Source: Candidatus Aveggerthella stercoripullorum (GTDB taxonomy: Bacteria > Actinomycetota > Coriobacteriia > Coriobacteriales > Eggerthellaceae). Taken from it: a stretch of DNA of 64,000 bases. Below, piece after piece: positions 6,084 through 60,021 of this stretch (its first letter is position 1; every line of letters starts with the position of its first letter). Where the stretch lies: assembly GCA_018712955.1 (NCBI GenBank), contig DVGB01000089.1, positions 1 through 64,000 of the forward strand. Direction: 5' to 3'. The notes under the pieces were generated by a model. That model saw nothing but the letters and a program-made list of their open reading frames with translations. It made no database searches and was not told where the DNA came from. The position numbers were made by a program, and so were the translations under genes.

Positions 6084-6160
6084 TGGTCCGGAGGCTTTGC
6101 GCTTGTCCGCGCGATGAGCCGGAAACGAAAGCTTATCCGTCGCTCTAACGGCACGGAGAC

Positions 6161-6195
6161 ACAAAGAAAGCCCTGGACTCCAGGGCTTTCTTTGT
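6161..6195. terminator. bidirectional rho-independent terminator
   Basis: ACAAAGAAAGCCCTGGA at 6161-6177 and TCCAGGGCTTTCTTTGT at 6179-6195 are perfect inverted copies around one base. The GC-rich core is flanked by A-rich and T-rich runs, so the hairpin works on both strands. It separates the converging channel gene (ends 6083) and the PanE-like gene (ends 6258). Confidence 0.9.
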
Positions 6196-6257
6196 GCGGT
6201 GAGAAAAGGCGGCGCTTAGCGCTTGCATGCGGTTTTGTTATGGCGAAGGCGGGTTTC

Positions 6258-57187: not shown

Positions 57188-59316
57188 TCATGCAGCTTGA
57201 ACATCTTACGAAGTCGTTCGGCAGCCGCGTGCTTTTCGAGGACGTGAACCTTCGGTTGGAGGAGTACGACCGGTTGGCGCTTGTCGGCCCTAACGGTGCG
57301 GGCAAGACCACGATGCTCAACATTATTTCAGGGGAGGACGACGCCGATGCGGGCCGCGTGCTCTTCGCAAAGGGCGCTCAGGTGGGCTACCTGGAGCAGG
57401 AGGCCATCGAAATGCAGGAGCGTCCCATCTTCGAAGAGGTCATCTCGTCGCAGACGGAAATTCTCGAGGCAGAGCAGCGCCTGCGCCGTTTGGAGGCCGA
57501 GCTCGGGGAGGATCCGACGCCTGCGCAGCTCGCTGCATGCGGCCGGGCGCGCGATGCCTACGAGGCCATGGGCGGCTACACCCTTGAGCCGTTGGTGCGT
57601 TCTGTGCTCTTCGGCTTGGGCTTTGGCGAAGCGGACATGCGTCGGCTTACCACGGAGTTCTCCGGCGGCTGGCAGATGCGCATTGCGCTGGCGAAGCTGC
57701 TCATCCGCAATCCAGAAGTGCTGCTGCTCGACGAGCCGACGAACCATTTGGACCTGGAGTCCGTCAAATGGCTCGAAGGCTTCCTGCGCGGTTACAAGGG
57801 CACCGTTGTCGTGGTCAGCCACGACCGTGCGTTCATGGACAACATGGTGGACCGTGTGGCGGAGATCGACAACGGCCACGTGACGGTCTACCGCGGCAAC
57901 TACAGCGCGTACTTGCGCCAGCGCGCCGAGCGCATCGAGCAGCTCAAGGCAGAGGCGGCAAAGCAGCAAGCGGAGATCGCGCATTTGGAGGCGTTCGTCG
58001 AGCGCTTCCGCTACAAGGCCACGAAAGCCAAGCAAGCGCAGGACCGCCTGGCAAAGCTCGAGCGCATCAAAGCGCACCGTATCGTCGTGCCCGAAGAGCG
58101 CAAGACCGTGCATTTCAATTTCCAGCAGCCTCCCCGTACGGGCGATACCGTCGTGAAGGTAGAGGGCGTGAAGAAGTCCTTCGGCGACAAGCACGTCTAC
58201 GATGGGCTTGACCTTACCATCTACCGCGGCGACAAGGTGGCGCTCGTCGGACCGAACGGCGCTGGCAAGTCCACGCTGCTTAAGATGATCGCTGGCGTGT
58301 ACGCGCCTGATGCGGGCTCTATCGGGTATGGCGTCCATGTGGACAAGACCTACTTCGCCCAACATCAGCTGGAGGAACTGCATCCGGGCAACACCGTGTT
58401 CGAGGAGCTCGATCGCGTGGCGCCCGGCTGGACCATCTCGCAAGTGCGCACGCTGCTCGGTGCGTTTCTGTTCGAGGGCGATGCCGTGGACAAGAAGGTG
58501 AGCGTGCTCTCCGGCGGCGAGAAGTGCCGCCTGGCTTTGGCGAAAATGCTCGTGGCTCCAAAACCGCTTTTGTGCCTCGACGAGCCGACGAACCATTTGG
58601 ACATCGCGAGCGCCGACATCCTCGAGCAGGCGCTCAAGGCGTTCGAGGGCACCATCGTGCTCATCACGCACGATAGGCATCTGATTCGCAGCGTGGCGAA
58701 CCGCATCATCGAGATCAAGCCCGGCAGCGTGACGAACTACGACGGCGACTACGACTATTACCTGTTCAAAAGCGGACAGGCGGACACGCCGGAAGCGGTC
58801 GGCGGGTCTTTGGTTGACGAGCTGTTCTCCAAAGGCGGCACGTCGGAGGCTTCCTCGAAGAGCGCGAAGGCCCCGGGCAGCACGCGTGCAGCAGGCGGCG
58901 GCAAGAAGGCGAAGGGCTCCTCAGCGAGCTCGCCGACGAAGGCCAAGGGCAGCTCAGGCGCGCTGGCGAAATCCGGTAATCCCACCCAGCTTACGGCACC
59001 GCGCGGTAGCGCCCCGAAGACGAAAGAGCAGAAGCGTCGCGAAGCGGAAGCGCGCAACCGTGCGTACGCTGCGCTCAAGGGGCATCGCAAGCGCTTGGAA
59101 GAGCTCGACCGCCAGATGGAGCGCGATCGCAAGCGCCTTGACGAAGTGCTCGAAACGCTTGCCGACCCGGACTTCTACACCTCGGAGGCCTCTACGAGCG
59201 ACGTCATTGCCGAGCACGCGCAGCTCAAGCAGCGGCTTGCGGCGGCGGAAGAGGAATGGCTGCTTCTCTCCGAGGAACTCGAGGAGGAAATGGCACGCCA
59301 ACAGGAGATGGTGTAG
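57184..59316 (+). CDS. ABC-F family ribosome-associated ATPase
   Basis: A 710-residue protein with two ABC ATPase domains and no membrane segment. Domain one has [13 protein letters not shown] (about 34-46) and [14 protein letters not shown]; domain two has [13 protein letters not shown] and [13 protein letters not shown]. Both Walker B regions read LDEPTNHLD. The linker between them (about 250-310) is the charged helical P-site tRNA interaction motif. The C-terminal end has a Ser/Ala/Lys-rich stretch and a coiled coil, as in Uup. ABC-F proteins rescue stalled or antibiotic-bound ribosomes or support translation. The attenuator upstream suggests inducible expression. Confidence 0.9.
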
Positions 59317-59550
59317 AGGCCGGGCGTACGACCAGGCGGCTCGTCCGGAAGGCCCCGGGCGGGCTGAGGGTGCTCAGGTGCGCCGCTCTGCTGTTCGGCT
59401 TTCGAATTGCACGCAATTCGAAAGCCTCATGCGCTCCGCTGCTTCATGCTTTGGAAAGCGCGCTTCGCGCGCGGTCAGGAATGGTGTTCAGACGACACCT
59501 TCGACCCTCAGCCCGCCCGGGGCCTTCCGGACGGTCAGAAAGGATTCCGC
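59317..59550. other. intergenic region occupied by an inverted-repeat element
   Basis: Most of this gap is the structured element at 59342-59533. Outside it only the ribosome site of trmL (AAAGGA) is recognised. Confidence 0.6.
59342..59533. repeat. 192-bp element with perfect 30-bp terminal inverted repeats
   Basis: The 30 bases at 59342-59371 (beginning CGTCCGGAAGGCCCCGGGCG) are the exact reverse complement of 59504-59533. Between them are a 14-bp hairpin (GGCTTTCGAATTGC/GCAATTCGAAAGCC, 59397-59426), GCGCGC-TTC-GCGCGC (59458-59472) and GGTGT/ACACC (59483-59499). It could fold as a long closing stem with a branched interior. No target-site duplication is evident at its edges, and no coding frame is plausible. 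Confidence 0.75.
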
Positions 59551-60021
59551 ATGATCAACGTCGTGCTTTTCGAGCCGGAGATTCCCCAGAACACGGGCAA
59601 TATTGCGCGGACGTGCGCGTGCACGGGAGCGCGCCTGCATTTGGTGGAGCCGCTGGGATTCCGCCTTACGCAGAAGTACCTGGCGCGCGCGGGCATGGAC
59701 TACTGGGACGACGTCGAGGTCGTGCGCCATGCCTGCACGCGGGATTTCCTGGCTGCGCACGCCGCCGACGAGCTGTGGTTCTATACGGGGCATGCGTCCC
59801 GTCTGCATACGGACGTGGACCTTTCGGATGCAGGGCAGGAGATCTACCTTGTTTTCGGGCGTGAAAGCCGCGGCATCGATTCGGACATCCTGCACGAGCA
59901 CGAGGGCCGGTGCGTGCGTTTGCCCATGGTGCCGGGCATGAGGAGCTTGAACCTTTCGAACGCGGTGGCGATAGCCGTCTACGACGCCCTTCGGCAGCAG
60001 GGATTCCCCGGACTGGCCTGA
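59551..60021 (+). CDS. trmL: TrmL, tRNA 2'-O-methyltransferase (SPOUT)
   Basis: A 156-residue SPOUT methyltransferase that modifies the wobble position (C34/U34) of tRNA-Leu. It has the family start VVLFEPEIPQNTGNIARTCACTGARLHLVEPLGF, then LVFGRESRGID and the knot motif VPGMRSLNLSNAVAIAVYDALRQ. ATG at 59551 lies six bases after AAAGGA. The upstream neighbour is the inverted-repeat element, whose right arm ends 17 bp before the start codon. Confidence 0.93.
   Translation: MINVVLFEPEIPQNTGNIARTCACTGARLHLVEPLGFRLTQKYLARAGMDYWDDVEVVRHACTRDFLAAHAADELWFYTGHASRLHTDVDLSDAGQEIYLVFGRESRGIDSDILHEHEGRCVRLPMVPGMRSLNLSNAVAIAVYDALRQQGFPGLA

Follow-up and report, generated by a model that had tools for sequence, protein, structure and literature searches.

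A dispersed palindromic repeat of Eggerthellaceae with conserved inner blocks and copy-specific stems

The gap between the ABC-F gene and trmL in the window, the 64-kb stretch of DNA analysed here, holds a palindromic structure that we consider probably to be a young copy of a dispersed, non-autonomous mobile element of the REP/MITE-like kind, nearly confined to Eggerthellaceae. Copies of the element share short conserved blocks, and their long stems are paired within each copy and different between copies. No Rfam family or described repeat that we found matches it, nor did literature searches for repeats or small RNAs of Eggerthella, Adlercreutzia, and Gordonibacter turn up anything relevant, and this repeat family of gut Eggerthellaceae is apparently undescribed so far. 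As an undescribed family in common gut bacteria it will confuse the annotation of noncoding RNAs and terminators. It is also a natural data set, with stems that are free in sequence and strictly paired, among them orthologues whose two arms have changed together, so that the origin and upkeep of long perfect palindromes, by template switching or by selection, becomes testable in bacteria.

Architecture of the window copy

The ABC-F stop codon ends at 59316 and trmL starts at 59553, and the element occupies the gap of 59317-59552 between them, as a reading of the letters alone had described. That sequence-only reading had also reported a perfect 30-bp inverted repeat around further hairpins, one of them of 14 bp, and both features are present. 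The outer stem, P1, is formed by a left arm at 59342-59371 and a right arm at 59504-59533 (+ strand, as for all parts below), which are complementary at 30 of 30 positions across a spacer of 132 nt and constitute the longest perfect inverted repeat of the window when repeats within 400 bp are compared. This stem is locus specific, the arms of other copies being unrelated to it. Inside it follow conserved block A at 59383-59396 (CCGCTCTGCTGTTC; family consensus CCGCTCCGCTGYTC in an alignment of 52 copies), the P2 hairpin at 59397-59426, a 14-bp palindrome that is hypervariable across the family yet self-complementary, conserved block B at 59427-59449 (TCATGCGCTCCGCTGCTTCATGC; family consensus TCRKGCGCTBCRCTSCTTCATGY), the P3 hairpin at 59458-59472 (GCGCGCTTCGCGCGC), which is variable in other genera, and conserved block C at 59476-59493 (CAGGAATGGTGTTCAGAC; consensus GGTGTTCAGA in the same 52-copy alignment). 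A weak hairpin, GGTGT..ACACC at 59483-59499, lies outside the conserved structure of the family. The whole structure, with its 30-bp outer stem and internal hairpins, measures 192 bp, and the region folded as RNA reaches -138 kcal/mol, whereas shuffled versions average -97 (z = -8). The earlier statements that the element has no coding frame and no target-site duplication are both upheld, in that no conserved coding frame was found in the element and no duplication is visible at the window copy when it is compared with the empty site of the sister species. Against Rfam 15 at gathering/curated thresholds the window gave tRNA only and nothing relevant to the element, and a permissive Rfam scan of seven copies returned chance hairpin hits only.

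Copies and distribution of the family

The search for second copies that had been proposed gave a divided answer: in the draft genome of the window (2.18 Mb, 115 contigs) there is a single instance of the arms, and the interior recurs at three other places, two on contig C42 and one on contig C66. The two C42 copies are inverted relative to each other and have inverted arms of their own that are unrelated; closely spaced inverted pairs of copies occur in the family. Further core copies were found in genus-mates and in other Eggerthellaceae; a covariance model of the core, which is essentially sequence based with 9 pairs, matched 41 of 138 Eggerthellaceae genomes in 20 of 48 genera, with 1 to at least 25 copies per genome, no more than 25 candidates having been scored in any one genome. 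The exact 23-base block B pattern was present in 1-11 copies in 25 of the 138 family genomes, and control patterns gave zero matches in every genome listed. Matches in GTDB come nearly all from Eggerthellaceae (Adlercreutzia, Gordonibacter, Anaerotardibacter, Enteroscipio, and uncultured members); the four hits outside the family, in Myxococcales, Pseudomonas, Sulfurovum, and Hydrogenedentes, were set aside as chance, three having weak arms and one being unparsable near a locus end. An exact core match was also sought among the viral contigs of IMG/VR and not found, and a viral origin was rejected on that ground. The existence of a dispersed family excludes the purely local regulatory palindrome that had been among the first suggestions.

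About 80 parsed copies share one plan, in which a left tag, a P1 arm, block A, P2, block B, P3, block C, the second P1 arm, and a right tag follow each other. The left tag is (T/C)GTCC or CTCC and the right tag TAC or TGC; the left arm of P1 usually measures 29-33 bp, P1 encloses about 90-130 nt, and element size across the family ranges from 150 to 230 bp. The outer end of the left arm in the window, CGTCC, resembles the left tag TGTCC/CGTCC of other copies.

Insertion and dispersal together with the arms

In both sister species ABC-F and trmL nearly abut (TAACGAAAGGACCCGCATG), and neither a palindrome nor any arm sequence stands between them. The comparison of trmL loci with and without the element, which the sequence-only reading had recommended, thus shows two species that lack the entire insert: the flanks match them at 79-86%, and the segment without counterpart spans about 59317-59537, arms included (query 617-838 unmatched). 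Since palindrome and arms are both missing from the sisters, insert and arms either arrived together or disappeared together, and the perfect arms make insertion simpler than loss. On this simpler reading of the aligned sequences, the element would have been inserted after the split from two sister species of the same genus.

Further copies, in Adlercreutzia, have empty counterparts too. In Candidatus Gordonibacter avicola, five near-identical copies with the same arms stand beside different genes, and the copies L140 and L197 have arms that are 95/90% identical and flanks that are 42/52% identical; the recurrence of the same arms at unrelated loci shows dispersal with the arms. One copy (L141) is apparently nested within another.

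Dispersed copies, the empty site in the sisters, and near-identical copies at unrelated loci favor the miniature transposable element among the options first put forward, but the element is not a classical MITE. Small noncoding repeats of about 100-200 bp dispersed in bacterial genomes include ERIC and RUP. Like these and like MITEs, our element is of about 100-200 bp, noncoding, dispersed, and polymorphic in presence between related species; MITEs, in contrast, have terminal inverted repeats common to all copies and target duplications, whereas the arms of the element are copy specific and no duplication is visible.

Stems paired within copies and different between them

The 80 copies fall into 63 distinct P1 arm clusters, and mean pairwise identity is 34% for the P1 arms and 89% for block B over distinct copies. 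Among 59 distinct P1 arms, the inner 18 bp are Watson-Crick paired at 89% of positions, against 35% after arms are shuffled between copies. Held-out copies, which the core model identified afterwards, likewise have long, locus-specific perfect arms (e.g., 46, 31, 30, 29, 29, and 26 bp). Concerted changes on the two sides of a stem are seen at two orthologous sites and in one duplicate. At an orthologous site of two Gordonibacter species (L341/L342), one P1 base pair was lost or gained on both arms together and P2 shows two compensatory pairs; at one Adlercreutzia site in two species (L085/L219) the arms are 68/74% identical and still paired; and in a recent duplicate within one genome (L036/L049) P1 is 97% identical, with P2 and P3 swapped for other self-complementary sequence. 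In some other orthologous arms changes have occurred on one side only, as in decay, and pairing is not always kept. From these paired changes, tallied by eye in a small set of copy pairs, we read the stems as diversifying fast with occasional re-pairing.

Template switching is documented as a source of multinucleotide, concerted two-sided changes in stems (Monttinen and Loytynoja 2022, PMC8794818). The stems described there resemble ours in being perfect and in changing on both sides together, although they belong to rRNA and microRNA genes and not to a bacterial dispersed repeat. Template switching or selection for a hairpin would each yield stems such as those seen here, and our data do not separate the two.

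A proposed mechanism

In the working model that we favor, the element would have entered the ABC-F/trmL junction after the lineage split from two genus-mates, and the unit of movement would run from tag to tag with the arms included. The conserved junction blocks, perhaps with a GTAG-like foot tag, would be recognized by an enzyme acting in trans, presumably on the element folded as single-stranded DNA. For the stems, self-complementarity would suffice and the sequence would be free. One arm would be copied onto the other by template switching during replication (quasipalindrome correction), whether or not the hairpin is also under selection, which would explain how stems diverge fast yet stay paired. 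A bolder version makes the stems copy-specific, self-matching barcodes: template switching would diversify each copy while complementarity is kept, so that a copy pairs only with itself, and the element would stand for a whole class of mobile elements whose unrelated cores, the one described so far (core A) and a second one (core B, CGCTCARACAGTCCTCGCTY), share one architecture. We regard this version as tentative and rather doubtful.

Structured RNA as an alternative

The strongest competitor to a mobile element is a functional structured RNA or 3'-end element (a terminator, an mRNA-stability element, or an RNase III substrate) whose stems are kept by compensatory selection and whose copies spread by being useful behind genes. 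We think it unlikely, even though it would account for the strong compensatory covariation in the stems and for the many copies at gene 3' ends, right behind stop codons and between convergent genes. By the counts of a crude home-made gene finder that misses trmL in the window, and which are therefore approximate, 31 copies are in convergent, 24 in codirectional, 12 in antisense, and 3 in divergent settings. This context resembles the one reported for REP elements (PMC3733652) and would also fit selection against the disruption of promoters; for an RNA, a codirectional-to-antisense ratio of only 24:12 is a weak bias, and synteny across species is generally absent. In 25 of 72 copies a run of at least four T's stands between P3 and block C; it is intrinsic-terminator-like in many Adlercreutzia copies, some of which may terminate transcription; in the window copy P3 is followed by no such run, and by this criterion that copy would not. 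Mismatches in P1 on the + strand comprise 79 AC/CA and 45 GT/TG, so that they give no support to an RNA read in the trmL direction; a G-U bias as proof of the RNA strand was rejected, the mismatches leaning mildly the opposite way. The absence of Rfam matches also counts against this alternative. Its specific form in the sequence-only reading, a structured RNA transcribed with trmL, is unsupported, given the many unrelated neighbor genes, the absence of the element from the sister trmL loci, and the lack of a G-U bias on the trmL strand. In favor of this alternative, the five Adlercreutzia species compared at one intergenic site all have a palindromic element there, and different palindromic elements at one site in different species (the L077 locus) could mean a function of the site, e.g., termination, and not random insertion.

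Relation to REP elements and the candidate mobilizer

The mobile element that we prefer could also be a member or derivative of the GTAG REP superfamily (IS200/IS605 or RAYT type) whose loop has been enlarged and whose movement depends on a RAYT transposase, an explanation to which we give little credence. GTAG (on the reverse strand; CTAC on the + strand) stands exactly at the foot of P1 in 20 of 80 copies, and TCCG at the other side of the foot in 26 of 80, against 0.4 expected in either case; tag words at the exact foot are at least 50 times commoner than expected. GCAG occupies this position in 9 of 80 copies, which brings those with GTAG or GCAG to 29 of 80, and the window copy is without a GTAG foot tag. 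GTAG REPs measure 20-40 bp, have stems of 5-13 bp, and are associated with RAYT transposases (Di Nocera et al. 2013, PMC3733652). The element shares with them a palindromic, intergenic nature, a position at gene 3' ends where genes are convergent or codirectional, and inverted pairs, and part of its copies have a GTAG-like tag at one foot. It differs from them in its size of 150-230 bp, in a stem of about 30 bp around conserved blocks and two hairpins, in having its conserved motifs inside and not in the stem, and in a stem sequence that differs between nearly all copies.

We considered RAYT-type Y1 transposases as the mobilizer because of the gene context and the GTAG-like tag. The window genome has two RAYT-like Y1 transposase genes (C97:16937, L255; C77:11845, L256), and such genes are found in many relatives, yet they are absent from most Adlercreutzia genomes, though these are rich in copies, and in none of the Y1/RAYT loci fetched, whether from the window genome or from others of the family, does the core flank the gene. 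With most of the copy-rich Adlercreutzia genomes devoid of RAYT and the fetched loci unflanked, a RAYT/Y1 transposase is not assignable as the mobilizer and was rejected for want of any association with the element; no mobilizing gene was found, which counts against a mobile element, and it has possibly been lost. In G. avicola, four copies (L131, L133, L142, and L189) are followed in their right flank by a short repeat, GTGACGCGCTTACGCGCTAC, and a Y1 transposase gene of the same genome has similar sequence in its vicinity (L257:852-873 and 1159-1180); this type of repeat may be the REP of that transposase.

CGTC REPs, known from Proteobacteria, Chlorobi, Bacteroidetes, Spirochaetes, and Thermotogae, have 8-9 bp stems and 4-5 nt loops (PMC3733652). 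Like the element they have no known dedicated transposase, some of them lie within longer palindromes, and their tag variants TGTC/CCTC resemble its left edge TGTCC/CTCC; unlike the element they have short stems and loops, and they have not been reported from Eggerthellaceae (PMC3733652). The element is thus of the REP/MITE type by its behavior and falls outside both the GTAG REPs (by size and RAYT) and the classical MITEs (by arms and target duplication).

That the core alone is mobile and inserts into pre-existing palindromes, so that the arms are target sequence, would fit arms that differ at nearly every locus and the REP dimers known inside longer palindromes in other bacteria (PMC3733652), and is most improbable, being disfavored for the window copy by a sister site without palindrome or arm sequence and more generally by near-identical copies with the same arms at unrelated loci and by empty Adlercreutzia sites which, where examined, had no matching palindrome. 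The arms as a duplicated flank or a pre-existing target palindrome were rejected because the empty site has neither.

A second family and other repeats

A second dispersed family, core B (CGCTCARACAGTCCTCGCTY ... TCGCTGCGGAACTCGCTCGG), is unrelated to core A and has the same plan, with arms of 19-24 bp and a variable inner hairpin. It occurs in 43 of 138 Eggerthellaceae genomes, with up to 37 copies in Adlercreutzia and zero control matches; copies lie at L293:6592, L293:18538, L277:10390, L345-L350 (about position 1500), L216:386, and L217:383. At one intergenic site 3' of the same gene (L215:240-560, L216, L217, L218, and L077), three Adlercreutzia species have core A and two others have core B. 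An abundant, MITE-like repeat of about 160 bp with the ends GTCCGACAGGTGCCTGG / CCAGGTGCCTGTCGGA is found at many places per genome (in G060 and other Adlercreutzia, e.g., L206 and L207), and it occupies the same intergenic site where other species have a core A element. At 6160-6196 the window itself contains a perfect palindrome, CACAAAGAAAGCCCTGGA / TCCAGGGCTTTCTTTGTG, whose 18-bp stem closes on a loop of 1 nt; this hairpin may be a terminator.
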